IMG/VR virus record: IMGVR_UViG_3300005613_000287
Location: 1-30,513 of that record
From: a virus
Length of the DNA stretch: 30,513 nt
Direction: 5' to 3' (one strand)
Numbering within the stretch: the first letter of the stretch is position 1; each line of letters opens with the position of its first letter. The position numbers and the translations under genes are program-made. This document shows, one piece after another, positions 1 through 30,513 of the stretch. The notes below the pieces were generated by a model, which did not search any database, was not told where the DNA came from, and worked only from the letters and a program-made list of their open reading frames with translations.

Positions 1-104
1 AGTTAAGAAAAGGTTGATCCTCCTCTACTATATATTATTATACTCCTCCTTATGTAGGCCGTTTTTTTTTGAAACTCTTTAAAATAAAGGATCGTTATTT
101 TTTA
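1..104. repeat. Left copy of genome-end repeat
   Basis: These 104 bases are identical to 30236-30339, so the window reads through the circular or terminally redundant junction. The stretch is non-coding. It contains two CTCCT-type pyrimidine blocks (about 19-26 and 43-50) separated by an AT-rich TATATATTATTATA segment, then a run of nine T. I see no open frame and cannot tell whether it holds a packaging site, an origin or only a leader. Confidence 0.95.
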
Positions 105-112
105 AGAGAGAG

Positions 113-145
113 TGGATTTTTAAATATATAAAAATAAAAATCCAT
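113..145 (+). promoter_or_regulatory. Inverted repeat ending at HNH start codon, with AT-rich promoter-like core
   Basis: The arms TGGATTTTTA (113-122) and TAAAAATCCA (135-144) are perfectly complementary and enclose AATATATAAAAA. The right arm ends one base before the ATG at 146. The core TATATAAAAATAAAAA is shared with the leaders at 30387-30403 and, with G for A, at 25377 and 29439. It probably combines a short-leader promoter with an RNA hairpin or operator abutting the start codon. Confidence 0.55.
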
Positions 146-776
146 ATGAAAAAATGTAAAGTTTGTTTAGAAGAAAAAGAATTAAATTTATTTGATAAAG
201 TTAGTAAATCTGGATATAGAGGAACTTGTAGAAAATGTAGAAATACAAAAAATAGGAAATCTTGGTTATCAAATGAAAAAAATATAGAAAAAAGGAGAAA
301 ATATATGAAAAATTATATGAGGGAAAAATATCATAATAATGAAGAATATAGAAGATATCATTGTTTATTATCTAAATTGAGTTATAAATTAAAAAATGAT
401 ATTAGATTTAGAGAAAAATTTGAATTAAAATTTGATGAAAATATGAATTGGGATAATAAAGGTATTTATTGGGAGATAGATCATATCAATTCTGCATTAA
501 AAATGATTAAAAATGGTTATAGCGATGAAGAAATAAATGATATTAGAAATGTCAGACCACTTACTATAAAACAAAATAGAGAAAGAGTAAAAAAAGATAA
601 TAATGAATATGTTGAATATAAAGAACCAATAAGTCAAAAAAAATATAGAAAAAAATATTATCAAAAAAATAAAGAACAAATATCAAAGAAAAATAAAATA
701 TGGTATCAAGAAAATAAAGAAAGATTAAAATATGAAAGAGATCTTAAAAATTTGAGTAAAAATTAAAAAAATCCAT
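136..776 (+). mobile_element. HNH-gene insertion bounded by 10-bp direct repeats
   Basis: The decamer AAAAATCCAT occurs at 136-145, directly before the HNH start codon, and at 767-776, directly after its stop codon. The second junction copy has the decamer once (30349-30358) and no HNH gene. The net length difference between the copies is 653 bp: 631 bp for the ORF plus one decamer, and 22 bp of promoter-side sequence. The left and right flanks next to the insert also differ between copies, while sequence further out is identical. This is what a recently gained or lost free-standing homing-endonuclease cassette would look like. Confidence 0.7.
146..766 (+). CDS. HNH homing endonuclease with N-terminal zinc finger
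   Basis: This 206-aa protein has a Cys4 zinc knuckle (C4, C7, C28, C31), a basic linker, and an HNH core with D112-H113 in WEIDH followed by an R-x-x-N-V-R-P-L segment and N144. The C-terminal 50 residues are a Lys/Tyr-rich repeat-like tail. The HNH family nicks or cuts DNA using one metal ion. Free-standing phage copies usually promote their own spread into gene-lacking alleles. The start is fixed by the inverted repeat that ends at 144. A related but distinct HNH lies at 25397-26086. The gene is missing from the second junction copy, which supports mobility. The HNH call is firm; homing activity is inferred. Confidence 0.85.
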   Translation: MKKCKVCLEEKELNLFDKVSKSGYRGTCRKCRNTKNRKSWLSNEKNIEKRRKYMKNYMREKYHNNEEYRRYHCLLSKLSYKLKNDIRFREKFELKFDENMNWDNKGIYWEIDHINSALKMIKNGYSDEEINDIRNVRPLTIKQNRERVKKDNNEYVEYKEPISQKKYRKKYYQKNKEQISKKNKIWYQENKERLKYERDLKNLSKN

Positions 777-787
777 AGTAGAAAAAA

Positions 788-826
788 AGTTGTTTTTATA
801 GTTAATAAATAAAAATAAAAACAACT
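788..826 (+). promoter_or_regulatory. Inverted repeat ending at the start codon of the PD-(D/E)XK gene
   Basis: AGTTGTTTTTAT (788-799) pairs perfectly with ATAAAAACAACT (815-826), and the ATG at 827 follows with no gap. The arms differ in sequence from those at 113-144 but keep the same layout and a similar A-rich core. The second junction copy (30370-30408) has a different loop and still keeps 10 bp of pairing. Confidence 0.55.
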
Positions 827-1414
827 ATGAGTAAATATTATGAAGACAGTATCGTAGAAAGAATGTATCTAAAAGAACTAACCAATAGACTTAGAGATAC
901 ATTTGATATAAAATTATATCAAACACCACCTGAAGGCAAAGATAAATATGATGGTATATTATATTTCTTTGATAAAGGTGGATATAAATTAAAGAAGAGA
1001 GTTATCATAGAAGTTAAAGTTAGAAAGGATTGGTATTCTACTTTAATGTTGGAAAAGATTAAACTAAATAATCTTCTTGATATAAGAAAGAATTTAGATA
1101 AGCAATCTGAAAAAGAAACTGGTGATAAGATTGAATCTGATATATGGTATATGAGCGTTACTCCGAAAGAAACATATATTTGGAAATTAGGAAAAAAATA
1201 TGAATGGAAACAAGAATATCATAATAAATCAACTAATAATCCTTCTTTAGGAAAAATTTTAAAAGATGTTACATATTTAGATATAAATAAATCTAAAAGA
1301 TTTGAATGGACATCTAATACTTTTAAATATAATGATGTATCTAAAAAACAAATAGAAACTATAAACTTAAATATAAAAAGAAATATTTGTATATTTAAAT
1401 CAATTGGATTATAA
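827..1414 (+). CDS. PD-(D/E)XK-like nuclease, putative
   Basis: This 195-aa protein has the pattern of a PD-(D/E)XK fold in its first third: D42 in YDG, a beta-hairpin (residues 43-58), then E62-V-K64 in IIEVKVRKDW. These are the usual acidic, acidic and lysine catalytic positions. Such proteins in phages act as recombination or restriction-type endonucleases; which of these applies cannot be told here. The C-terminal half (about 100-195) is not recognised. It directly follows the HNH gene and is followed 16 bp later by a DUF6378-like gene. The first 35 codons are repeated at the window end, an effect of genome circularity and not a duplication. The fold assignment rests on a short motif only. 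Confidence 0.55.
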   Translation: MSKYYEDSIVERMYLKELTNRLRDTFDIKLYQTPPEGKDKYDGILYFFDKGGYKLKKRVIIEVKVRKDWYSTLMLEKIKLNNLLDIRKNLDKQSEKETGDKIESDIWYMSVTPKETYIWKLGKKYEWKQEYHNKSTNNPSLGKILKDVTYLDINKSKRFEWTSNTFKYNDVSKKQIETINLNIKRNICIFKSIGL

Positions 1415-1430
1415 AAAATAAAAATTAATT

Positions 1431-1697
1431 ATGAATATATTAAAGAAAGCAGATGAAATAATAAATGAAAGAAGTGAAGAAAAATTAAGAGAATATGGTC
1501 CGATAGATGATAATATAAAAAATATGGTTGAATTATTTAAAATAATGAGTGGAAAAGAATTAAGTATAGAAGAAGGTTATATGATTTTAATTTGTAATAA
1601 ATTAGCAAGACAATCTTTTAAACATAAAGAAGATAATTTGTTAGATTTATGTGCATATACAGGAGCTTTAAATAATTATATTGAGAAAAAATTGTAA
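1431..1697 (+). CDS. DUF6378-like phage protein
   Basis: This 88-aa protein matches the pattern of the DUF6378 family of phages: an N-terminal helix with NERSEEKLREYGP, a middle helical stretch with SGKELSIEEGYMIL, and the KEDNLLD-x-x-AYTGALNNY ending. The family function is not known to me. The acidic DN-x-x-D segment recalls all-alpha NTP-pyrophosphohydrolase-like small proteins, but I do not claim that activity. It follows the A-rich leader AAAAATTAATT-ATG and is the last gene before a terminator, so it closes the first transcription unit. Confidence 0.6.
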   Translation: MNILKKADEIINERSEEKLREYGPIDDNIKNMVELFKIMSGKELSIEEGYMILICNKLARQSFKHKEDNLLDLCAYTGALNNYIEKKL

Positions 1698-1777
1698 AAT
1701 AAGATATCAAAAAAGAAGTATAGAAAACTAATAGAAGATTTTAGAAGAAATCATATGTGAAAAATCTAATGTGTGAT

Positions 1778-1812
1778 AAGGGTCGTTCTTGGAAACAAGG
1801 CGGCCCTTTTTT
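1778..1812 (+). terminator. Rho-independent terminator with GNRA-type loop
   Basis: AAGGGTCG (1778-1785) pairs with CGGCCCTT, with one G-T wobble. An inner CTTG/CAAG stem is capped by GAAA, and a T run follows. It separates the first unit (HNH, nuclease, DUF6378-like) from the zinc-ribbon gene, whose promoter-like sequence overlaps the T tract. Confidence 0.85.
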
Positions 1813-1824
1813 AATATATAATAT
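1811..1824 (+). promoter_or_regulatory. Promoter-like TTAATATATAATAT
   Basis: The string TTAATATATAATAT lies between the terminator and the ATG at 1825. Similar AATATATAA strings stand just before the starts at 9994, 10209, 25397 and 29457. No clear -33 element is seen. Confidence 0.4.
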
Positions 1825-2244
1825 ATGAAATGTAAAAAATGTGGAATAAAAAAACATAATAATGGACAAGAATTATGTTTTAGATGTAAGCCTAGGAAAC
1901 AATCTATCTATAAAAAATGTGGTAAATGTGGTTGTGAAAAAACAAATGCTCTTAGTACGCCATATTGTAAGCCTTGTAATAGAGAATATAGTAAAAATCT
2001 AAGAGAATATAATTTAGAAAATATAAGTAAATATGATGAAAAATCAATAATAAAGTTTATTGAAAGGATTGAAAGAAGAAATGGTTATGTAAGCATATAT
2101 GAATTATTAGTTGAATTGATTACTTTATTCAATACATTAGGCAAAGGTAGTGAAATTTATAATGAATATGAACCGAATATTCAATTACAAAAAATGTATA
2201 AAGAGTTAAAAAAAGTTGTTAAGTATGATAAAAGAAATATGTAA
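1825..2244 (+). CDS. Zinc-ribbon protein of unknown function
   Basis: This 139-aa protein begins with two zinc-binding CxxC pairs (C3-C6 and C18-C21) and then a second set (C32, C35, C48, C51). These resemble the N-terminal fingers of the two HNH proteins in this genome. No HNH core follows. Instead there is a helical region (about 60-139). It may be a DNA- or RNA-binding regulator, or a remnant of an HNH protein that kept its fingers. It begins a new transcription unit after the terminator at 1778-1812 and overlaps the next gene by 20 bp. Confidence 0.6.
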   Translation: MKCKKCGIKKHNNGQELCFRCKPRKQSIYKKCGKCGCEKTNALSTPYCKPCNREYSKNLREYNLENISKYDEKSIIKFIERIERRNGYVSIYELLVELITLFNTLGKGSEIYNEYEPNIQLQKMYKELKKVVKYDKRNM

Positions 2245-2437
2245 AGAAAAGAATATAAATTTTAAAAGAGATTATAAAAATGGATTATGGATTTTTTCAT
2301 ATAAGAAAAAAGATTTTGAGTTTTCATTTGGTTATTCAATGGATCAAGATCCATTAAAATGTTTACCTCATTTTGAAGAGATGTTAAAGGTTGAATTAAG
2401 AAATAAAAAGATAGAATCCATAATTGGAAAAAAATGA
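2225..2437 (+). CDS. Hypothetical protein
   Basis: This 70-aa protein starts at ATG 2225. A TTG nine bases upstream is in frame but has no support. It has a short N-terminal helix (IKEICKEKNINF) and then an alternating aromatic/charged pattern that suggests a small alpha/beta fold. The start lies inside the end of the zinc-ribbon gene, so translation is probably coupled. No family is recognised. Confidence 0.6.
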   Translation: MIKEICKEKNINFKRDYKNGLWIFSYKKKDFEFSFGYSMDQDPLKCLPHFEEMLKVELRNKKIESIIGKK

Positions 2438-2461
2438 CTTTTTAAATATAATATATAAAGT

Positions 2462-2587
2462 ATGAAAACAATAGATTATATAAATTGGATGATTTTAGAG
2501 AATAGAAAAAATCCTATACGCTTATCTATATGGAGGTTCATATTAGGTAAATATATTGAGTGTAAGAGACGATCTAATAAAAAATGA
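2462..2587 (+). CDS. Small basic protein (41 aa)
   Basis: The frame encodes MKTIDYINWMILENRKNPIR and then a Trp/Arg/Lys-rich tail. It follows a promoter-like AATATAATATATAAAG string (2446-2461) immediately before the ATG, which favours it being real. It ends 10 bases before the preferred ATG of the next gene. There is no homology I recognise; it could be a short leader or regulator. Confidence 0.45.
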   Translation: MKTIDYINWMILENRKNPIRLSIWRFILGKYIECKRRSNKK

Positions 2588-2597
2588 TATATCATAT

Positions 2598-2990
2598 ATG
2601 ACTAGTACAGATAGTTTAAGAGAGTTAAGAAAAAAGTGGCAACATATTAGTTATGAAATGCCAATATATTTAGAAAAAAGTAATAAAAGAGATTATGTTG
2701 TTTATCATAATTATAGATGTATATTAGAATTTATATTAGTTTTGATTAAAGATAAAATATATTCTGATGTTTATATTGATAAAATAATTCTGAAATGTCA
2801 GGAAAATTTTGATAAAATATATGTTGAATGGAATGAAGATTCATATGATAAATTGTTTTTAATGTCTGCTGATTTAATTAACTTTATAGAAGGAATTATT
2901 GAAGATGCAGAACAATATGAATTATATGAAGTTTGTCATAATATAAAATCTTTTGATGAAAAATTTAAATTAATTAGTGAAGAAGAATGA
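2598..2990 (+). CDS. Hypothetical all-helical acidic protein
   Basis: I take ATG 2598 (130 aa). The frame is open back to a TTG at 2556, which would give 144 aa and overlap the small gene at 2462-2587. The protein is rich in Asp, Glu, Tyr and Ile, with predicted helices throughout and no membrane segment or metal motif. Its stop overlaps the GTG of the sigma-like gene by 14 bp, so the two are probably co-translated. No family is recognised. Confidence 0.65.
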   Translation: MTSTDSLRELRKKWQHISYEMPIYLEKSNKRDYVVYHNYRCILEFILVLIKDKIYSDVYIDKIILKCQENFDKIYVEWNEDSYDKLFLMSADLINFIEGIIEDAEQYELYEVCHNIKSFDEKFKLISEEE

Positions 2991-3543
2991 TATAATTATA
3001 TGGTTATATAATAATAAAGATTTTAATGATGGCTTTAATAAAATATGTACTGATGATAATTTTAAAGGAGATTTAATGCAAGAATTTTATCTGATACTTT
3101 TAGAAAAACCTGGAAATGAATTAAGAACATTATATTATAGTAAGAATTTAGTTTATTGGAGCTTAAAGATTTTAAAAAATCAATTTCATAGTAAAAGTAG
3201 TCCTTTTTATAAAAAATATAGAGTTAGAAAAGAAGATATAGAAGATTTGAATTTAATTGAAAATGAAACAGATTTAACAAGATATAAGATAATAGAAGAA
3301 GTTGAAAGAATTTTAGATGTAGATATACATTGGTTTGATGCACATCTTTTTAGATTATATTATTTAAATAATATATTAGAAGATGGTAATGAACTGAAAC
3401 CTATGAGTTTAAGAAAAATAAAAGAATTACATACATATGAAAATCTCTCAATAAGTATAAATACTATAACAAAAAGTCTATCAAAAACATTAACAACTAT
3501 TAGAAAAAAATTAAAAGAAAATTATGAAAAAGAAAGAGATTGA
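2977..3543 (+). CDS. Sigma-70-like factor, putative late transcription regulator
   Basis: This 188-aa protein starts with GTG 2977, preceded by AAATTAATTA; no earlier ATG is available. Residues 31-45 (GDLMQEFYLILLEKP) resemble the region-2 helix of sigma factors. Residues about 120-180 form a region-4-like helical pair with SLRKIKELH and a basic recognition-like helix (SLSKTLTTIRKKLK). Distant sigma-like proteins of this size are common in Bacteroidota phages. Its likely task is to direct host RNA polymerase to the AAATATATTTATA motifs before the late blocks. The last 20 bases overlap the first leucine-rich-repeat gene. The assignment is by pattern only and the binding site is inferred. Confidence 0.6.
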   Translation: MKKNDIIIWLYNNKDFNDGFNKICTDDNFKGDLMQEFYLILLEKPGNELRTLYYSKNLVYWSLKILKNQFHSKSSPFYKKYRVRKEDIEDLNLIENETDLTRYKIIEEVERILDVDIHWFDAHLFRLYYLNNILEDGNELKPMSLRKIKELHTYENLSISINTITKSLSKTLTTIRKKLKENYEKERD

Positions 3544-4312
3544 ATTAATTTGTAAAGAATATGGAATAGGAAATTATACCATTAATGAAGATGGGTCTAT
3601 TGATGTTCAAGGAAGTGTTCATTTATCTAATAAAAGATTAAAGAAGTTACCCATAAAATTTAAACACGTTAGTGGACATTTTAATTGTTCTAATAATCAA
3701 TTAACTACATTATCAGGAAGTCCAAGGACAGTAGGAGGTTATTTTGATTGTCATAATAATCAATTAACTACATTATCAGGAGGACCAAATTCAGTAGGAG
3801 GGAATTTTATTTGTTCTTATAATCAATTAACTACATTAGAAGGAAGTCCAAATTCAGTAGGAGGTAATTTTTATTGTTATAATAATCAATTAACTACTTT
3901 AGAAGGATCTCCAAAAAGTGTAGGTCTTAATTTTTATTGTTATGATAATAAATTAACTACTTTAGAAGGAAGTCCAAGAACAGTAGGAGGTGATTTTTGG
4001 TGTGATGATAATCAATTAACTTCTTTAGAAGGATCTCCAAAAAGTGTAGGTCATAGTTTTTATTGTAATAATAATCAATTAACTTCTTTAGAAGGATCCC
4101 CAAAAAGTGTAGGAGGTGATTTTTATTGTTCTAGAAATCAATTAACTACTTTAGAAGGAAGTCCAAGAACAGTAGGAGGTAGTTTTTATTGTAGAAATAA
4201 TAAATTAACTCTAGAAAGTTATGATAGTGATTATGTTAAATCTTATATTAAACAATTAAATAGAGATATAAAAATAAATGAATTATTAAATTATGAAAAA
4301 GAAAGAGATTGA
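3524..4312 (+). CDS. Leucine-rich-repeat protein, 8 repeats
   Basis: This 262-aa protein has three parts: an N-terminal cap (1-57, with YTINEDGSIDVQG), eight 21-residue repeats (58-225), and a C-terminal cap (LESYDSDYVKSYIKQLN). The repeat consensus is NQLTTLEGSP-x-x-VGG-x-FYC-x-x. The repeats form a solenoid; each has a conserved Cys. Proteins with this repeat are frequent in large Bacteroidota phages and their role is unproven; protein binding is the usual guess. It overlaps the sigma-like gene by 20 bp and its shorter paralogue by 20 bp, through the same DNA string at both junctions. Confidence 0.8.
   Translation: MKKKEIELICKEYGIGNYTINEDGSIDVQGSVHLSNKRLKKLPIKFKHVSGHFNCSNNQLTTLSGSPRTVGGYFDCHNNQLTTLSGGPNSVGGNFICSYNQLTTLEGSPNSVGGNFYCYNNQLTTLEGSPKSVGLNFYCYDNKLTTLEGSPRTVGGDFWCDDNQLTSLEGSPKSVGHSFYCNNNQLTSLEGSPKSVGGDFYCSRNQLTTLEGSPRTVGGSFYCRNNKLTLESYDSDYVKSYIKQLNRDIKINELLNYEKERD
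3695..4198 (+). repeat. Tandem 63-bp coding repeats (8 units)
   Basis: Eight in-frame 63-bp units begin with AATCAATTAACTAC or a close variant (AATAAATTAACT in one). Neighbouring units share long identical stretches, for example around GAAGGATCTCCAAAAAGTGT. Repeat number can therefore change by slippage or recombination without breaking the frame. Confidence 0.9.
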
Positions 4313-4766
4313 ATTAATTTGTAAAGAATATAATATAAGAAATTATACCATTAATGATGATGGGTCTATTGATGTTGATGGAGATGTTAATTTATCAGGA
4401 AGAAAATTAACAAAGTTACCTTTAAAATTTAGAAATCTTAGTGGTGATTTTGATTGCTATGATAATCAATTAACTACTTTATCAGGATCTCCAAAAAGTG
4501 TAGGAGGTTATTTTTATTGTACATATAATCAATTAACTACTTTAGAAGGATCTCCAAAAAGTGTAAAAGGTAGTTTTTATTGTAATAATAATCAATTAAC
4601 TACTTTAGAAGGAAGTCCTCAGGTAGAAGGTAATTTTTATTGTTCTGATAATAAACTAAATCTAGAAAGTTATGATAGTGAATATGTTAAATCTTATATT
4701 AAACAATTAAATAGAGATATAAAAATAAATGAATTATTAAATTATGGAATGGATGATATTATTTAA
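4293..4766 (+). CDS. Leucine-rich-repeat protein, 3 repeats
   Basis: This 157-aa protein is a tandem paralogue of the preceding gene. The N-terminal cap (1-57) and C-terminal cap (LESYDSEYVKSYIKQLN) are nearly the same, but there are only three repeats (58-119), the third being one residue short. The first 40 or so bases are almost identical to those of the first paralogue and are likewise embedded in the tail of the upstream gene. This indicates that whole genes, including the overlap junction, were duplicated. The last codons diverge (GMDDII) and overlap the next gene by 23 bp. Confidence 0.8.
   Translation: MKKKEIELICKEYNIRNYTINDDGSIDVDGDVNLSGRKLTKLPLKFRNLSGDFDCYDNQLTTLSGSPKSVGGYFYCTYNQLTTLEGSPKSVKGSFYCNNNQLTTLEGSPQVEGNFYCSDNKLNLESYDSEYVKSYIKQLNRDIKINELLNYGMDDII
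4464..4649 (+). repeat. Tandem 63-bp coding repeats (3 units)
   Basis: Three units (63, 63 and 60 bp) of the same family as 3695-4198, with identical blocks shared between the two genes. Recombination between the arrays could fuse or delete the genes in frame. Confidence 0.85.
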
Positions 4767-5201: not shown

Positions 5202-5667
5202 TAAAGAAGCACACTTCACAACAGATGAGTTAATAAATGAAATGTTTAATTTATTAAAAAAATATTATAAAGAAGATATATCAGAATATTTAGAAAATTC
5301 TGCTGGTGATGGTAGAATTATAGATAGATTTGATAAACCTTATATAGCTTTTGATATTAAAAGCAGAAGATATGATATAAAAGAATGTGATTATTTGAAA
5401 GAAAATATAGAATATAAGAAAAATAGAGTTTGTATAATGAACCCTCCTTTCAATAAAGGTTTGAAATTTTTATATAAAGCTCTTAAAGAATGTGATTATG
5501 TATTAACAATTCTAAGCCAAAATAGTCTATTAAATATTGATTATGATAAAGTATGGTGTGATGAAATACAATTGTGGAGAAAGTATGATTTTACCACTTG
5601 TAAAGCTGGAATTATTTTGGTTGCTTGTAGAAGTAAAAAAGAAGGTGATAAATATGAATATGAATAA
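5176..5667 (+). CDS. DNA N6-adenine methyltransferase-like protein
   Basis: This 163-aa protein has the SAM-binding motif I as ENSAGDGRI (40-48) and the catalytic motif IV as NPPF (89-92) after VCIMN. The order I then IV is that of the gamma/beta N6-adenine or N4-cytosine methyltransferase fold. At 163 aa it is smaller than most and shows no separate target-recognition domain, so its specificity may be loose. There is no restriction partner nearby; solitary phage methyltransferases commonly protect phage DNA or modify host DNA. Its 3' end overlaps the first of two paralogous genes by 14 bp. Confidence 0.75.
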   Translation: MSNLKYKGDKEAHFTTDELINEMFNLLKKYYKEDISEYLENSAGDGRIIDRFDKPYIAFDIKSRRYDIKECDYLKENIEYKKNRVCIMNPPFNKGLKFLYKALKECDYVLTILSQNSLLNIDYDKVWCDEIQLWRKYDFTTCKAGIILVACRSKKEGDKYEYE

Positions 5668-5992
5668 GACACTTGAGAATAGAAGAAAAGTTGGTGGTGA
5701 TAATTTTACAATTAAACATTCAAGAAGATCTAATTTATATTTAAGTGATTATATAGATAAATTCAATTTCAATGATTATTGGTGTTTTAAGTCAAGTGGT
5801 CATCAAAAATTAATAGATGAAGAAGATTTTCTAAAATTAAAATATTCTAGTTATATTTTCTTTAAAAAAGACTTATATAATGTTAATGAAATTATAGAAT
5901 GGATTGATTGGTGTAAAAATATAGGAGGAATACAATTCTTAGATAAATTAACTCCTCCTTTTAATCCTAAAAAAATTATAATAAAACAATGA
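5654..5992 (+). CDS. Hypothetical protein, first of a tandem paralogue pair
   Basis: This 112-aa protein starts at ATG 5654. The frame is open upstream to 5537, but that part overlaps the methyltransferase and has no counterpart in the paralogue, which begins with the same MNMNKT. Shared features are RKVGGD, SNLYL-x-DYI-x-KFNF, DYWCFK, HQKLIDEEDFLK and the ending TPPFNPKK-x-IIKQ. The mix of aromatic and basic residues suggests a compact alpha/beta domain. It overlaps its paralogue by ATGA. No function is recognised. Confidence 0.7.
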   Translation: MNMNKTLENRRKVGGDNFTIKHSRRSNLYLSDYIDKFNFNDYWCFKSSGHQKLIDEEDFLKLKYSSYIFFKKDLYNVNEIIEWIDWCKNIGGIQFLDKLTPPFNPKKIIIKQ

Positions 5993-6342
5993 ATATGAAT
6001 AAGACAATTGCGAATGTTAGAAAAGTTGGTGGAGATTATTTTAGGTTAATGTACCTAAGAAAATCTAATTTATACTTAAAAGATTATATTAATAAATTTA
6101 ACTTTGATGATTATTGGTGTTTTAAGGCAACTAATCATCAAAAATTAATAGATGAAGAAGATTTTCTAAAATTTGAATATTCTTGTTATGTTTTCTTCAA
6201 AAAAGAATTATATGATGTTAATAAAATTATAGAATGGACTGATTGGATAAAAGTAAATAGTGTTCAAAATGGTAATGGTGGTGGATATTTAGTTATACCA
6301 ACTCCTCCTTTTAATCCTAAAAAAGTTATAATAAAACAATAA
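5989..6342 (+). CDS. Hypothetical protein, second of a tandem paralogue pair
   Basis: This 117-aa protein is a close paralogue of the preceding gene along its full length. The main difference is a longer, Gly/Asn-rich loop (VQNGNGGGYL) before the conserved C-terminal TPPFNPKK. The four-base overlap (ATGA at 5989-5992) indicates coupled translation, so the two products may form a hetero-oligomer. It is the last gene of the accessory block; a promoter-like motif and the packaging genes follow. Confidence 0.7.
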   Translation: MNMNKTIANVRKVGGDYFRLMYLRKSNLYLKDYINKFNFDDYWCFKATNHQKLIDEEDFLKFEYSCYVFFKKELYDVNKIIEWTDWIKVNSVQNGNGGGYLVIPTPPFNPKKVIIKQ

Positions 6343-24771: not shown

Positions 24772-25281
24772 ATGGCTTGTACAATAAATAGTGGTTATAG
24801 TTTAGGTTGTAGAGACTCAGTTGGTGGTATTGAATATGTTGCGATAGCTTCATATGATTCAACTACTACTTATACAACTGGTACAACTTATTCAATTGAT
24901 TCTTTTTCACCGACTGCTTCATTTTATAAATTTGAACAATTCGTCGAACAAGGATTAGCTTCACAAGAAGGAGCTTTTGATAATGTTAATGGAACATCTT
25001 TCTATACTCAAACAGTGACAATAATTTTAGAAAAAATGGACACTGCGACAAGAGAACAATTCTTAGCATTAACTCAAGCAAGAGTTAGAATTATATTTAA
25101 AACTCAAAATGGTAGATATTTCTTGGTTGGTCAAGTAAATGGAGCTAGAGCTTCTGCTGGTTCAGCAGGTCCAGGCCAAGGTCTTGGAGATTTGGCTGGT
25201 TTCACTTTAACTTTTGAAGCTAAAGAACCAACACCAGCTGTTGAATTAGAACCAACTTTCGCTGAAAGTTTAATAGTTTAA
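24772..25281 (+). CDS. Major tail tube protein
   Basis: This 169-aa protein starts MACTINSGYSLGCRDSVGGI and is beta-rich. It has the tail-tube pattern of Bacteroidota siphophages: FVEQGLASQEGAFDNVNGTS, TQTVTIILEKMDTATREQFL, and a C-terminal beta domain after GPGQGLGDLAGFTLTFEAKE. It stands between two terminators, so it is a single-gene unit of high output, as expected for a protein needed in many copies. It is separated from the tape measure by the head genes, which is an unusual order. Confidence 0.8.
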   Translation: MACTINSGYSLGCRDSVGGIEYVAIASYDSTTTYTTGTTYSIDSFSPTASFYKFEQFVEQGLASQEGAFDNVNGTSFYTQTVTIILEKMDTATREQFLALTQARVRIIFKTQNGRYFLVGQVNGARASAGSAGPGQGLGDLAGFTLTFEAKEPTPAVELEPTFAESLIV

Positions 25282-25305
25282 TCCTTTCTTTTCTTATATA
25301 CATTT

Positions 25306-25344
25306 AAAATCCTCATATTTATTCTAATATGGGGATTTTTTTTT
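25306..25344 (+). terminator. Rho-independent terminator after tail-tube gene
   Basis: AAAATCCTCATAT (25306-25318) pairs with ATATGGGGATTTT (25327-25339) with one G-T wobble, and a T tract follows. Confidence 0.85.
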
Positions 25345-25373
25345 ATTTATTTTCATATGTAGAACAATATATT

Positions 25374-25392
25374 TAATATATAAAAGTAAAAA
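25374..25392 (+). promoter_or_regulatory. Promoter-like TAATATATAAAAGTAAAAA
   Basis: This 19-base string is immediately before the HNH start at 25397 and is nearly identical to the one before 29457. It also resembles the core at 125-140 before the first HNH gene. Confidence 0.5.
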
Positions 25393-25396
25393 GTTT

Positions 25397-26086
25397 ATGA
25401 AAAAGTGTATAAAATGTAATTTAGAAAAAAATATAGAAGATTTTAGTAAATGTAAAAATTTAAAAAGTGGATATAGGAATGAATGTAAAAAATGTATGAA
25501 TGAATATAAAAAAAATAATATAAAGTATAATTGGACTGAGGAACATTATAATGAAAATGATAATAAAATTTTTAAATGTGGTAAATGTAAAGAAGATAAA
25601 TTAGGTTCTTGTTTTTTTAGAGACAATAGAACAAAAAATGGTTATTGTTCAAGATGTAAGAAATGTCAAAATGAATATAATAAATATATTTATTATAAAA
25701 ATAATTGGCATAAGAATAACAGGATTTTAATTAATAAATATAGAAGGGACAAGTATAAAAATGATGATATATATAGATTGAGTGAATGTTTAAGGTCTCT
25801 TGTTAATAGAGGACTAAAAAAATATAATAAAAAATCAAGAACAGAGGAAATACTTGGTTGTTCATTCATTCAATTCAAAGAATATATTGAATCTAAATTT
25901 GAAAATTGGATGAATTGGGACAATTATGGAAAATATAATGGTGAATTAAATTATGGATGGGATATAGATCATATTATACCAATCTCATCAGCAAAAACAG
26001 AAGATGAGATCATTAATCTAAACCATTATACAAATTTACAACCACTTTGTAGTAAAATTAATAGAGATATAAAGAAAGATAATTAA
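25397..26086 (+). CDS. HNH homing endonuclease in the structural region
   Basis: This 229-aa protein has Cys4 knuckles (C4, C7, C30, C33 and C61, C64, C87, C90), a helical segment (TEEILGCSFIQFKEYIESKF), an N-terminal HNH strand (MNWDNYGKYNGELNYGWDID) with D191-H192, and NLQPL before N222. The order and the LGCSF and LNHYTNLQPL strings match free-standing phage HNH endonucleases. It has its own promoter-like string and sits between the tail-tube terminator and the next late-class motif, so it interrupts the virion gene order as an independent insert. It is only distantly similar to the HNH at 146-766. Confidence 0.9.
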   Translation: MKKCIKCNLEKNIEDFSKCKNLKSGYRNECKKCMNEYKKNNIKYNWTEEHYNENDNKIFKCGKCKEDKLGSCFFRDNRTKNGYCSRCKKCQNEYNKYIYYKNNWHKNNRILINKYRRDKYKNDDIYRLSECLRSLVNRGLKKYNKKSRTEEILGCSFIQFKEYIESKFENWMNWDNYGKYNGELNYGWDIDHIIPISSAKTEDEIINLNHYTNLQPLCSKINRDIKKDN

Positions 26087-26106
26087 ATAAAGTAAAACAA
26101 AAATCA

Positions 26107-26125
26107 ATAAAATATATTTATATAT
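26107..26125 (+). promoter_or_regulatory. AATAAAATATATTTATATA motif (late class)
   Basis: The AAATATATTTATATA core lies 30 bases before ATG 26156 and restarts transcription of the portal block after the HNH insert. Confidence 0.55.
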
Positions 26126-26155
26126 GTAGATATATTGTAAAAGTTATTAAAAGTT

Positions 26156-26542
26156 ATGCAAACATTAAGTAAAAGTGGAACAAGTTCGGTGATATTCAGG
26201 TTAAATAAGGTGAGCCAGTATGTAAGTCCTTATTATATTTTTGAATTAGAAAATCAAAATAGTAAAGAAAAAACTTTATTTACTGGTTCTGATATATCAC
26301 CAGTACCATTACAATATAATGAATTTCAATGGGTTAATGGCGTTACATATTCTGCAACTCAAAGTAGATTTAATTTAGATAGTGGAAATTATTTTTTGAA
26401 TATATATGAAACAGAATTTCAAGGGATTACTAATTCTGCTTCTGCTTCTTTATTATATCAAGGTGAAATAAAAATTGAAGGTGATGTTAAACCAGATACA
26501 ATATATTATGAAAATAATAATACGATAAAATACTTCGAATAA
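26156..26542 (+). CDS. Beta-rich virion-like protein (128 aa)
   Basis: The sequence has the pattern of a small beta-sandwich: VIFRLNKVSQYVSPYYIFEL, TLFTGSDISPVPLQYNEFQW, FNLDSGNYFLNIYE and SLLYQGEIKIEGD. Similar proteins are common in structural clusters of Bacteroidota phages, possibly capsid decoration or tail-associated. There is no signal peptide or enzyme motif. It is 16 bp upstream of the portal gene and probably co-transcribed with it. Confidence 0.6.
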   Translation: MQTLSKSGTSSVIFRLNKVSQYVSPYYIFELENQNSKEKTLFTGSDISPVPLQYNEFQWVNGVTYSATQSRFNLDSGNYFLNIYETEFQGITNSASASLLYQGEIKIEGDVKPDTIYYENNNTIKYFE

Positions 26543-26558
26543 AAATAAATAAGAATAT

Positions 26559-27710
26559 ATGCAAGTTAAAAGAGATGATGATAAATTAATTTCAAATAAA
26601 TTTAGAGTTATAGATCTAAATACTAAAATTGATTTACCACTTTTTAGAGAAACAGGTTATAGAGATTGGATAGATTATGGAATTGATAATTTATTTCCAC
26701 AATTCTTACAAGATGTTTATATAATGAAATCTATTACTCAAAAAACAATTATTAATAGAAAACAAAAAATGATAGCTGGTGAAGGTTGGAAAACACCAAC
26801 TAGTCCTGAACTTTTAAGATTTTTTAAAAATATATTTAGTGATGATAATTTAGACGACATATTATTGAAAATAACGTATGATCTTGAAATAAATGGTGGT
26901 TATGCTTTAAATATAATTTGGAGTAAAGATGGTGAAAGTATAGCTCAATTAGAACATATTCCATTCGAGACAGTAAGAATAGATAAGAATAATGGAGAAA
27001 AAGGTAAACCAGATTATTATTGGATTTGTGATGATTGGAGTAATACAAGAAAGTTTAAACCTGAAAGAAAACAAGGATTTTCTAAAAAGTTTAAACAAGA
27101 AAAAAATCAAATACTTTATAAACAAGAATACCAGCCTGGTTCAAGAATGTTCTACCCTATACCATCTTATTATTCTTCAATAAATTGGGTTTTATCAGAA
27201 TGGGAGATTTCCAATTTTCATAGGGCAACAATTCAGAATGGTTTTAATGCAGGTTTCATTTTAAACTTCGCAACAGGTGTTCCGAGTCCTGATGAAATTG
27301 AAACAGCATATCGTGAAATAGAAAATAAATATACTGGCACATATAACGCCGGCAAATTCATTTTAACATTTTCAAATGGTCAAGATGAAGCTCCTAAATT
27401 AGAACCAATTCCATTGGCTGATACTGATGCAAGATATACTCAATTAAATGATTTAATAAGACAAAATATATTTGTGGCTAATGAAGTTGTTAATCCAGAA
27501 TTGTTCGGTATATCAGTTCCTGGCAAGTTGGGGAATAAACAAGAAATGTTAGAAGGTTTAGAGATTTTTCAATCCACTTATGTAAATTATAAACAAAAGT
27601 TTATTGAAGATTGTTTTAATAAATTGAAAGATATAAATGGAATAGAAGAAAATCTAATGATAAACAAATATGAATTAGATTTACAAAAAATAAGTGAAAC
27701 AAATGAGTAA
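26559..27710 (+). CDS. Portal protein
   Basis: This 383-aa protein resembles PBSX/HK97-type portals: an N-terminal region with RDWIDYGIDNLFPQFL, a stem/wing region (YDLEINGGYALNIIW, then IPFETVRIDKN), ISNFHRATIQNGFNAGFILN, KFILTFSNGQDEAPKLEPIP and IFVANEVVNPELFGIS, followed by a C-terminal helix. The portal is the dodecameric ring through which DNA is packaged. In most siphophages it follows terL; here it is about 18 kb downstream. Its stop overlaps the next gene by 8 bp. Confidence 0.85.
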   Translation: MQVKRDDDKLISNKFRVIDLNTKIDLPLFRETGYRDWIDYGIDNLFPQFLQDVYIMKSITQKTIINRKQKMIAGEGWKTPTSPELLRFFKNIFSDDNLDDILLKITYDLEINGGYALNIIWSKDGESIAQLEHIPFETVRIDKNNGEKGKPDYYWICDDWSNTRKFKPERKQGFSKKFKQEKNQILYKQEYQPGSRMFYPIPSYYSSINWVLSEWEISNFHRATIQNGFNAGFILNFATGVPSPDEIETAYREIENKYTGTYNAGKFILTFSNGQDEAPKLEPIPLADTDARYTQLNDLIRQNIFVANEVVNPELFGISVPGKLGNKQEMLEGLEIFQSTYVNYKQKFIEDCFNKLKDINGIEENLMINKYELDLQKISETNE

Positions 27711-28281
27711 TTATGCTTCTTTTATAACAACTAAATATATCAAAGATAATACGGCTGCTTTAGGTTATATAAACGATGATGAATTAAGAACCTTTATACG
27801 ACCTGCACAAGACCAGTACGTAGAAAGAGTTTTAGGTTCTAATCTATATAGAGCTTTAATAAACGCTGTAATTAATTCAACTTTATCATCAGACCAAGAA
27901 GAATTATTGAGACAATATATTCAACCTGCTTTACAATACTGGGTTATTTATGAATGGGTTTTATGGTCTAATTATAAATTAACTAACAAATCTGTTTCAT
28001 TACAAAATTCTGATAATTCTAATCCCGCGGATTTTAGTCAAGTTATTTCTTTAAAGAATAATGTAAGAGATTGGGCTGAATACTATACTGAAAGAATTTC
28101 TAATTATTTAAAAGACAATCCTAATAAGTTTCCTGAATATTTAGTTGGCAATACTGGATTTAGTGATAAAAACCCAAAATCTGATAATTATATGATTTTT
28201 GGAGGAATGTATATTCCTAAACAATTCGGTTCATTATGTCCAGCTCCTATGGCTTGGGATGCTATAAAATTATATTGGTAA
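27703..28281 (+). CDS. Head-tail connector / head completion protein
   Basis: The preferred start is ATG 27703 (192 aa); an in-frame GTG at 27694 is less likely. The sequence (ASFITTKYIKDNTAALGYIN, FIRPAQDQYVERVLGSNLYR, then LRQYIQPALQYWVIYEWVLW and NNVRDWAEYYTERISNYL) is the helical pattern of DUF6712-like adaptors found next to portals in Bacteroidota phages. Such adaptors form the ring between portal and tail. It overlaps the portal gene by 8 bp. Confidence 0.75.
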   Translation: MSNYASFITTKYIKDNTAALGYINDDELRTFIRPAQDQYVERVLGSNLYRALINAVINSTLSSDQEELLRQYIQPALQYWVIYEWVLWSNYKLTNKSVSLQNSDNSNPADFSQVISLKNNVRDWAEYYTERISNYLKDNPNKFPEYLVGNTGFSDKNPKSDNYMIFGGMYIPKQFGSLCPAPMAWDAIKLYW

Positions 28282-28282
28282 A

Positions 28283-28417
28283 ATGAAAAGAGAAAGAAGA
28301 GATAAAAGCAAAGGAAATATATCTAACCTTATTAGAAGACAAATGATTACAAAAATAAAGCCTTCTAAAAAGATATACAATAGAAAAAAAGATAATAAAT
28401 TATGCAAACATATTTAA
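28283..28417 (+). CDS. Small basic phage protein (44 aa)
   Basis: The frame gives MKRERRDKSKGNISNLIRRQ and then a Lys-rich segment PSKKIYNRKKDN. This type of short, very basic protein with a PSKK-x-Y-x-RKK motif is a frequent neighbour of holin genes in Bacteroidota phages. It begins two bases after the connector stop and overlaps the holin start by 16 bp. The role is unknown; nucleic-acid or membrane-surface binding is plausible from charge. Confidence 0.65.
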   Translation: MKRERRDKSKGNISNLIRRQMITKIKPSKKIYNRKKDNKLCKHI

Positions 28418-28833
28418 AATCGTTTTTAGTTAGTTTATTAAGTTTTTTTATTCCAGTTGTACCACTACTTTTATTGGTTGGTGGATTTATATTATTTGAT
28501 ACTATACTTGGAATATGGGCAGCTAAAAAAAGAGGTGAGAAAATCACATCAAGAAAATTGGGAAATATAATACCAAAAATGATTTTATATCAAATGGCAG
28601 TTTTAAGTGCGTTTGTTTTAGATGTTTGGTTATTAGGTGAGTTTGTAAAATTCATACTTTCAATAGATTTATTATTTACTAAGTTAGTGGCTATGACTTT
28701 GGTTTTTATTGAGATATTAAGTATAAATGAAAACTTTACTTTTATTACTGGTAAAAATCTTTTTCAATCTTTTAAGTTGATGATAACAAGAGCATCATCA
28801 GTTAAACAAGATATAAAAAAATTAAATGATTAA
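28402..28833 (+). CDS. Holin (phage holin family 4-like)
   Basis: This 143-aa protein has three hydrophobic segments (about 15-40, 58-78 and 88-108). The signature FDTILGIWAAKKRGEKITSR follows the first one, as in the toxin-secretion/phage-lysis holin family. It would form membrane lesions that release or activate a lysin at the end of infection. No lysin is recognisable beside it. The start overlaps the small basic gene. Confidence 0.8.
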   Translation: MQTYLKSFLVSLLSFFIPVVPLLLLVGGFILFDTILGIWAAKKRGEKITSRKLGNIIPKMILYQMAVLSAFVLDVWLLGEFVKFILSIDLLFTKLVAMTLVFIEILSINENFTFITGKNLFQSFKLMITRASSVKQDIKKLND

Positions 28834-28834
28834 T

Positions 28835-28891
28835 ATGGAAAAATTAAAAGAACTCCTTGAAAGAGTATATAAAAAAATTGTAAATAAATGA
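28835..28891 (+). CDS. Very short ORF after holin (18 aa)
   Basis: MEKLKELLERVYKKIVNK is an amphipathic helix. It starts 1 bp after the holin stop and overlaps the next start by ATGA, so translation would couple the holin to the fibre-like gene. It may be a leader or the remnant of a longer gene. Short length keeps confidence low. Confidence 0.35.
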   Translation: MEKLKELLERVYKKIVNK

Positions 28892-29415
28892 GTTGGTTAA
28901 ATAGTAGGCAAAATATATTAGATGGAGATCACGGAAAGTTATCACAGATAGATAACACAGGCGAACAATTATATTATTTAAGAGAAGATGATAAACAAGC
29001 TTATATAAATTGTTTTATGTTTGGAACATCATCTACTACAATAATTGGAACTCAAAGTGAATTTATTAAATTAGAAGCAGTAACAACTAAAGGATTTTCA
29101 AGAAATGGATTAGTTCATACAAATAATAGATTTACTAATACTGGATCTAAAAAGATTTTTAAAGGAGAAGCAATTGTTTCTATATCATCAGGGAATAATA
29201 ATGAAATACATCTAGCTTTTTTCAAAAATGATAGTATAGTACCTTGTTCAGAACAAGAATTAACAACCAATTCTGGTGGTAGATTAAGTGCTGCTCCTAT
29301 ACAATGTTTAGTTGAATTAGATTTAAATGATTATGTTGAAATATGGGTTATGAATAATTCTGGAACAACGGATGTTGATTGTGATAATTATAATTTTATT
29401 TTAAATGAAATGTGA
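28888..29415 (+). CDS. C1q/TNF-like fibre-head domain protein
   Basis: This 175-aa protein has an N-terminal segment (MSWLNSRQNILDGDHGKLSQ). A jelly-roll-like pattern follows: NRFTNTGSKKIFKGEAIVSI, SGNNNEIHLAFFKNDSIV, LTTNSGGRLSAAPIQCLVEL, DLNDYVEIWVMNNSGTTDV. This alternation and the order of strands are like small trimeric C1q-type heads of phage fibres. It is probably an adsorption or virion surface protein; the gene is separate from the main tail block and adjacent to the holin. Confidence 0.6.
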   Translation: MSWLNSRQNILDGDHGKLSQIDNTGEQLYYLREDDKQAYINCFMFGTSSTTIIGTQSEFIKLEAVTTKGFSRNGLVHTNNRFTNTGSKKIFKGEAIVSISSGNNNEIHLAFFKNDSIVPCSEQELTTNSGGRLSAAPIQCLVELDLNDYVEIWVMNNSGTTDVDCDNYNFILNEM

Positions 29416-29422
29416 TTTTTTC

Positions 29423-29456
29423 ATTTTTTAATAATAATATATAAAAGTAAAAAATT
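29423..29456 (+). promoter_or_regulatory. Inverted repeat with promoter-like core ending at start codon
   Basis: ATTTTTTA (29423-29430) pairs with TAAAAAAT (29448-29455), enclosing AATATATAAAAG. One T separates the right arm from ATG 29457, the same geometry as at 113-145. Confidence 0.45.
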
Positions 29457-29582
29457 ATGGGTGCTGCAAAAGATGATTATATAAATAATGAAAATCTAAG
29501 ATATAAAGATATATTGATTATTAGATTGAAAAAAGAAATTAAAAAATTAAAAGAAAAGATAAATGATAAACAGGAAAAATGA
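29457..29582 (+). CDS. Small coiled-coil protein (41 aa)
   Basis: MGAAKDDYINNENLRYKDIL is followed by a Lys-rich heptad-like helix (IRLKKEIKKLKEKINDKQEK). It is preceded by a strong promoter-like string and overlaps the next gene by 20 bp. A helical oligomer is likely. No family is recognised; there is no membrane or signal segment that would support a spanin. Confidence 0.55.
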   Translation: MGAAKDDYINNENLRYKDILIIRLKKEIKKLKEKINDKQEK

Positions 29583-30183
29583 ATTTGATATAGATTATGG
29601 GCCGTTAAAAGGAGTTGATTTAAATGGTGTTAATTACACGTATATAAACGATAAGATGTTAGGCGAGGGTTTGGTATGGAATGGTGTAAAAGTTTCGTTA
29701 GATACGAGTTTTGATATAAAATTAAATATGATAAAAGTTCTTTTAGAAAGTTTAAAAGAAGATTTTAATTTAAGTCAAGAAGAATTAGATGAAATAGTAA
29801 AATTATTAAATAACAATAAAGAAATATCAAAAGATAATAATGATATATTAAATGAAATAAAGGATAAGATAGAACCTAAAATTATTTATAAAGAATTAGT
29901 AAAAAAGGTTACTGAATATGTTGAAGTAAGAACAACTAAATATATTGAAGTAAATAAAGGACAAAAAAAGCCTGATAAAGTTGAAAGAATAAATACTGGT
30001 TCATTGCCTCCATCTGGAACAGGAGGCTGGACTGATACTGGTAAAGGTTATTGGATTAAACAAAAAGGAAGTAGAACATATTATAAAGTTGGAAATAAAG
30101 TTTTAGATGAAGATGGATTTATGAAAGAATATAAAATCGGGCCATATGCTTTTAAGAAACCTAAACATTGGGGTTGGTATTGA
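29563..30183 (+). CDS. Unknown protein with coiled coil, last gene of the genome
   Basis: In this 206-aa protein the N-terminus (DIDYGPLKGVDLNGVNYTYI, then MLGEGLVWNGVKV) looks like a small beta domain. Residues about 55-125 form helices and a coiled coil. Then come a basic segment with KVTEYVEVRTTKYIEV, a Gly/Ser/Pro linker (SLPPSGTGGWTDTG) and a Tyr/Lys/Trp-rich end (RTYYKVGNKV, PKHWGWY). It starts inside the preceding small gene and ends before a terminator. No enzyme motif is visible. A lysis or host-surface role is possible only by position. Confidence 0.55.
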   Translation: MINRKNEFDIDYGPLKGVDLNGVNYTYINDKMLGEGLVWNGVKVSLDTSFDIKLNMIKVLLESLKEDFNLSQEELDEIVKLLNNNKEISKDNNDILNEIKDKIEPKIIYKELVKKVTEYVEVRTTKYIEVNKGQKKPDKVERINTGSLPPSGTGGWTDTGKGYWIKQKGSRTYYKVGNKVLDEDGFMKEYKIGPYAFKKPKHWGWY

Positions 30184-30187
30184 AATT

Positions 30188-30217
30188 AAAGAGGTTTAGA
30201 AATGAACCTCTTTTTTT
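30188..30217 (+). terminator. Rho-independent terminator at right end
   Basis: AAAGAGGTT (30188-30196) pairs with AACCTCTTT (30205-30213) around an 8-base loop, followed by T residues. It closes the late operon before the junction. Confidence 0.9.
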
Positions 30218-30235
30218 GTTTATGGTTGTTTTTTA

Positions 30236-30339
30236 AGTTAAGAAAAGGTTGATCCTCCTCTACTATATATTATTATACTCCTCCTTATGTAGGCCGTTTT
30301 TTTTTGAAACTCTTTAAAATAAAGGATCGTTATTTTTTA
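30236..30339. repeat. Right copy of genome-end repeat
   Basis: These 104 bases are identical to 1-104. After 30339 the two copies diverge until 30409, where identity with 827 onward resumes. Confidence 0.95.
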
Positions 30340-30348
30340 CTTTCTATA

Positions 30349-30358
30349 AAAAATCCAT
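30349..30358. other. Empty (HNH-less) allele of the insertion site
   Basis: A single AAAAATCCAT is present here, whereas the first junction copy has two, flanking the HNH gene. The 9 bases before it (30340-30348) and the 50 bases after it (30359-30408) also differ in part from the HNH-bearing copy; the 50-base segment is the same length in both. Confidence 0.75.
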
Positions 30359-30369
30359 TCTTTCTAAAA

Positions 30370-30408
30370 AGTTGTTTTTTTAGTTTATATATAAAAATAA
30401 AAACAACT
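30370..30408 (+). promoter_or_regulatory. Start-adjacent inverted repeat, allelic version of 788-826
   Basis: AGTTGTTTTT (30370-30379) pairs with AAAAACAACT (30399-30408) around TTAGTTTATATATAAAA, and ATG 30409 follows directly. The loop differs from the first copy, but both arms are kept. Confidence 0.55.
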
Positions 30409-30513
30409 ATGAGTAAATATTATGAAGACAGTATCGTAGAAAGAATGTATCTAAAAGAACTAACCAATAGACTTAGAGATACATTTGATATAAAATTATA
30501 TCAAACACCACCT
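30409..30513 (+). CDS. PD-(D/E)XK-like nuclease, 5' part (cut by window end)
   Basis: These are the first 35 codons of the same gene as 827-1414, identical in sequence, reached again because the window overruns one genome length. It is not a second gene. Here it follows the HNH-less leader. Confidence 0.9.
   Translation, partial: MSKYYEDSIVERMYLKELTNRLRDTFDIKLYQTPP

Follow-up and report, generated by a model that had tools for sequence, protein, structure and literature searches.

Introduction

Each phage homing endonuclease is, as a rule, linked to a single conserved gene. Intronless homing has a precedent (PMC6083498), and free-standing phage endonucleases usually cut the DNA hundreds of base pairs away from their own gene (PMC2988022). 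Carriage of a promoter with the mobile unit and autorepression by I-TevI provide two further precedents; upstream of the I-TevI reading frame, sequence shared with the homing target (15/20 identity) acts as an operator (PMC2988022).

The locus described here lies in a stretch of viral DNA of 30,513 bp, hereafter the window, which comprises the whole of IMG/VR record IMGVR_UViG_3300005613_000287. Its GC content is 26%, and its genes include those for terminase, portal, holin and tail-like proteins. The nearest named relatives of the portal protein, at 28% identity, belong to the Nonlabens phages P12024L and P12024S, which have a flavobacterial host. The two ends of this contig carry two versions of a single locus, with an HNH open reading frame (ORF) present at one end and absent from the other.

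Results

Two alleles of one locus occupy the contig ends

The sequence to the left of the locus, positions 1-104, is identical to its second copy at 30236-30339 (no strand is assigned to either), and the two copies diverge from positions 105 and 30340 onwards. At the left end of the window, the filled allele continues with a leader found only in this allele (105-145, plus strand) and with the HNH ORF itself (146-766, plus strand), which runs from ATG to TAA and encodes 206 amino acids. At the right end, comparison within the window delimits an empty allele devoid of both the HNH gene and the HNH leader (30340-30408, plus strand), followed by a second copy of the start of the downstream nuclease gene, which is cut by the contig end (30409-30513, plus strand). 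The two copies are identical again over 809-931 and 30391-30513. Between these points, 9 of 63 positions to the right of the insert do not match the empty copy, all of them inside 777-808.

An earlier note on this DNA had placed the ORF exactly between two copies of the decamer AAAAATCCAT, with a lone copy and no gene at the other end of the contig. Its coordinates are exact: the two copies at 136-145 and 767-776 lie flush on either side of the ORF, and the empty copy holds a single AAAAATCCAT at 30349-30358. The decamer occurs five times in the window against an expectation of 0.53, a count reached in 0 of 100 shuffles; two of the five occurrences fall within ORFs, on the minus strand. The central claim of the note, an HNH insertion polymorphism, is upheld by the filled and empty alleles of the window together with a second pair of alleles from two other contigs (L007 and L078, below).

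A search of the viral contigs with an exact 24-mer from the common left sequence returned no match. Contig L034 (positions 1-4054 of record 3300005346) is 99% identical to the window and covers window positions 26218 to 30253. It stops shortly before the allele boundary and is uninformative as to which allele it carried.

The overlap of the contig ends has the length of an assembly k-mer

In de Bruijn assemblers, contigs that halt at a branch of the graph overlap by the final k. JGI metagenome assemblies used MEGAHIT with k = 23,43,63,83,103,123 (PMC6646334; also PMC6243002), and the right-hand overlap of the present contig is exactly 123 bp. Because 123 is the last k of this list, the overlap is probably one of the assembly graph and not a physical repeat. 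The left-hand overlap, at 104 bp, departs from 123 and is close to k = 103. If, as we infer, this record came from the same assembler, the simplest account is that the contig ends form a bubble, that is, a shared genome from which an alternative branch leads off at either end of the contig. An overlap at a graph branch implies that both forms of the locus were in the reads, and by this assembly reasoning both alleles were probably present in the sample.

These observations bear on two further proposals of the earlier note. It had set the polymorphism within a physical terminal redundancy, for which we find no support, since the overlap has the length of a k-mer used in assembly and its two copies represent distinct alleles. 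It had also pointed out that the flanks close to the insert differ while the outer sequence is identical, which is correct; the outer identity, however, is built in by a contig that ends at a branch, and is thus no evidence for short co-conversion. The divergence at 777-808 would fit co-conversion, protection of the filled allele and strain divergence alike.

A conserved element precedes phage nuclease genes

The empty allele and related sequences contain an element, which we call E, of the form TATAAAAAATCCA-N(7-8)-AAAAGTTG. By comparison with relatives, E is intact in the empty allele (30345-30374, plus strand), where it reads TATAAAAAATCCA-TTCTTTCT-AAAAAGTTG. In the filled allele (763-792, plus strand), comparison of the alleles reveals an altered 5' edge (TTAAAAAAATCCA) and a changed spacer (TAGTAGAA), and six of the nine substitutions in the right flank sit in this spacer between the halves of E. 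The remainder of the leader of the downstream gene follows at 793-826 (plus strand), as delimited from the window sequence and the inverted-repeat test on leaders. The gene itself (827-1414, plus strand) encodes a PD-(D/E)XK-like nuclease with invariant D42, E62 and K64, and its predicted structure is nearest in fold to Hjc, the Holliday junction resolvases of archaea (Foldseek E 3.7e-4 to 2eo0). A single-sequence search with the same protein confirmed nothing.

In other phages, E stands 64-73 bp ahead of the start codons of PD-(D/E)XK-like nuclease genes that fall into two or more unrelated families. Homologues of the 827-1414 gene with E upstream were found in L036, L037, L041, L062, L063 and L072, relatives that were obtained through searches with the portal and capsid proteins. 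A scan of the viral_contigs collection for the exact E pattern yielded 10 records. Six of these are intergenic, 66-73 bp before the ATG of a PD-(D/E)XK-like gene, and represent several families (L080, L083 and L084; L085 and L086; L081); the remaining four match the pattern by chance within coding sequence, and three of these are one and the same sequence. The same scan of genome_contigs gave 7 matches, none ahead of a PD-(D/E)XK-like gene. The assignment of the other E-linked families to PD-(D/E)XK is made by motif and by one sub-threshold Pfam match (E 0.014).

A second copy of E occurs in L037 (at 14096) and in L081, and no nuclease gene follows either copy. These second copies weaken the idea that E is confined to nuclease genes and make a general early leader or promoter the more likely identity. 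On these comparisons we regard E as a real and conserved element and, to our knowledge, this conserved leader of phage nuclease genes has not been described. Because E stands before nuclease genes in other phages, the empty allele is ancestral and the filled allele derived.

Two features of these relatives were observed in passing. In L084 (4416-4460), E can pair with sequence just 3' of it (AAAAATCCA ... TGGATTTTT), as if the halves formed a hairpin. In L037 (14096-14600), the second E is followed by a stretch with no nearby ORF that resembles structured non-coding sequence, for which Rfam returned no match.

A second filled and empty pair lies before a different nuclease gene

The closest homologue of the HNH protein found, at 48% identity, is encoded by L007 (metagenome 3300027754), which was retrieved by protein similarity alone. 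In L007 a near-identical HNH leader precedes the HNH gene; downstream of that gene come a degenerate E (ATATCAAATCCACACTTGCCAAAAGTTG) and then a nuclease gene. When the fetched loci were searched by tblastn with the 827-1414 protein, no match was obtained in L007. A search with the L007 nuclease found L078 (metagenome 3300042304), 91% identical to L007 over 3.5 kb, in which E is intact (CTATAAAAAATCCATACTTACTAAAAGTTG) and the HNH gene is absent. In both pairs the insertion boundary falls within 5-8 bp of the 5' edge of E, and each empty allele keeps the TATAAA of E whereas each filled allele has it altered, which again marks the empty form as ancestral. Since L007 and L078 form a filled and empty pair at E before a different nuclease, the pattern is replicated at a non-homologous locus. 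The two known insertions may not be fully independent, given their related HNH proteins and leaders.

The decamers belong to the HNH leader and to E

The leader of the HNH gene (105-145) consists of the inverted-repeat arms GTGGATTTTT and AAAAATCCAT around an AT-rich core, and its right arm abuts the ATG. The inverted repeat is significant against 200 shuffles (p=0.005), and the leader reads AGAGTGGATTTTTAAATATATAAAAATAAAAATCCAT-ATG in the window and AGTGTGGATTATTTAATATATAAAAATAAAAATCCAT-ATG in L007. The bases before the left decamer are those of the HNH leader (105-135) and not the CTTTCTAT of the empty copy, and the two decamers therefore do not represent a simple target duplication. The left AAAAATCCAT is the right arm of the HNH leader, and the right AAAAATCCAT belongs to E.

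In L007 the right decamer is degenerate and does not lie flush with the stop codon, which leaves a reading of the flush decamers as target repeats unsupported. For the same reason, and with the left copy assigned to the leader and the right copy to E, we reject an insertion sequence or transposon with a 10-bp target-site duplication. The further proposal that the moving unit comprises promoter plus ORF fared better: the same leader recurs with the closest HNH homologue, that of L007, which has an empty relative. Among leaders at large, 8 of 18 have a best inverted-repeat stem stronger than in shuffled sequence (p<=0.025), which makes a general hairpin in leaders suggestive, not established. 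More speculatively, and by analogy, the AAAAATCCAT before the HNH start codon might act as an operator-like mimic of the target that limits expression of the HNH gene itself.

The HNH protein resembles free-standing homing endonucleases

The HNH protein matches PHROG 1035 (E 3.8e-10), which carries the family name 'endonuclease VII'. Four cysteines (Cys4: C4, C7, C28, C31) lie near its N-terminus, and the residues of an HNN metal site are present (D112-H113, N135, N144), with H113 and N144 invariant in a 9-sequence alignment. A Pfam search with the protein yielded no family above threshold. The predicted model is moderate in quality (pLDDT 77), and Foldseek with this model gave no match at E below 0.001; the best VIA structural matches were HNH nucleases, at weak scores (Z 5.2 and 4.6; I-HmuI 2.6), which makes a beta-beta-alpha metal fold no more than tentative.

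Membership of the Endo VII/DHHRN group was rejected, as the protein has DHIN in place of the DHDH motif as defined in PMC6083498. A group I intron-encoded endonuclease was also rejected: the insertion is intergenic, and no Rfam match reached the gathering score anywhere in the window. Instead, both in the window and in L007/L078, the gene is an optional one between conserved genes with allelic empty sites, as expected of a free-standing homing endonuclease. Among 15 related records, this HNH gene is carried only by that of L007.

Other insertions and duplications in the window

The interval 25282-26155, between the genes at 24772-25281 and 26156-26542, contains a further HNH gene (25397-26086, 229 aa). 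At this site there is just a short gap in L036, L037, L039 and L041, while L033 has a zinc-ribbon ORF and L035 has other HNH-like ORFs on the minus strand; on this comparison we regard 25282-26155 as an insertion hotspot. The span of L034 lies near both HNH sites, and strain variants of this phage exist. Elsewhere, two adjacent paralogous genes at 3524-4766 contain many LTTLxGSPxxVGG (leucine-rich-like) repeats and have common start and end sequences, and two adjacent paralogous ORFs at 5537-6342 have similar C-termini (PPFNPKKxIIKQ).

Discussion

The locus is probably the product of a free-standing HNH homing endonuclease that, together with its own promoter or leader (105-766), was inserted at the 5' edge of the conserved leader element E and targets E, cleavage being a prediction from sequence. 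During co-infection, the HNH protein would nick or cut empty genomes at E or directly beside it, and repair from a filled genome would copy leader and ORF into the empty one. The insertion would change the 5' TATAAA and the spacer of E, such that the filled allele would no longer be a substrate, and enough of E and of the nuclease's own leader would be left for expression of the nuclease gene. The two forms at the contig ends would then reflect the presence of both in the sample. A bolder version, possible but less likely than not, is that the homing site is a conserved cis-regulatory leader and not coding sequence, that the endonuclease invades non-homologous operons across phages, and that a half-site is reused as an operator before its own start codon.

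Other histories could produce a similar arrangement. If E were a conserved early leader that provides a short homology seam, the HNH gene and its leader could have been swapped by ordinary recombination without homing, the nuclease activity being directed elsewhere or incidental. Such mosaic exchange would suit the occurrence of E and leader in otherwise non-homologous operons, the nine differences between filled and empty right flanks, and the phage's other intergenic site (after the gene ending at 25281), which holds different genes in different relatives. Yet exchange makes no prediction of which gene sits there; the inserted gene is both times an HNH nuclease with intact motif residues, with boundaries twice within 5-8 bp of the 5' edge of E, and we consider this history unlikely. 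Given that free-standing endonucleases usually cut far from their own gene, the true cut site could also lie inside the coding sequence of the neighbouring nuclease, the leader being the insertion site only. This is the usual T4 arrangement (PMC2988022), but the nucleases beside the two insertions have no BLAST similarity, whereas E is common to both, and a cut site in the nuclease gene seems to us unlikely, although it is, like mosaic exchange, a serious rival.

It is harder still to credit a misassembly, in which an HNH segment of another phage was joined on and either the filled or the empty form is unreal. The contig does end within a repeated region, with a left overlap of 104 bp and not 123. 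The right overlap is nevertheless exactly 123 bp, the length expected with the JGI MEGAHIT k-list 23..123 where the graph truly branches; the empty form matches the family element E, and the architecture of the filled form recurs in the independent contig L007. Homing into E is our preferred reading.

If the HNH endonuclease targets a leader element common to unrelated operons, it would have landing sites at its disposal in different phages. The two natural filled and empty pairs make both the target and the boundaries directly testable, and E is itself of interest apart from the HNH gene.

Among known proteins, the present one is like F-CphI and the DHHRN group with the Endo VII motif in the name of PHROG 1035 and in its Cys4 zinc site, and unlike them in having DHIN for DHDH and in carrying the HNH family's central Asn. 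With the I-HmuI-type HNH homing endonucleases it shares the HNN active-site pattern and a weak structural match (Z 2.6); it differs from them in a Cys4 N-terminus and a basic helical C-terminus with no detected relation, and in not being intron-encoded. As in T4 I-TevI, I-TevII and I-TevIII, whose operators resemble their homing sites, a part-copy of the putative target stands directly before the endonuclease ORF. In contrast to these enzymes, there is no intron here, the operator role is putative, and the shared stretch is one decamer (plus its inverted arm) as opposed to 15/20 nucleotides for I-TevI.

In its genomic setting, the locus resembles T4 segF, segG and mobE and the Skunavirus HNH endonucleases, each a nuclease gene that is optionally present in the space separating two conserved genes and has polymorphic flanks. 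Unlike the arrangement proposed here, characterised free-standing phage endonucleases mostly cut hundreds of base pairs away in coding genes, SegB being an exception among them in that it targets a tRNA intergenic region. Seven T4 free-standing endonucleases are promoterless cassettes (PMC2988022), whereas the present unit brings its own leader and is inserted where a conserved non-coding element begins, at its edge.
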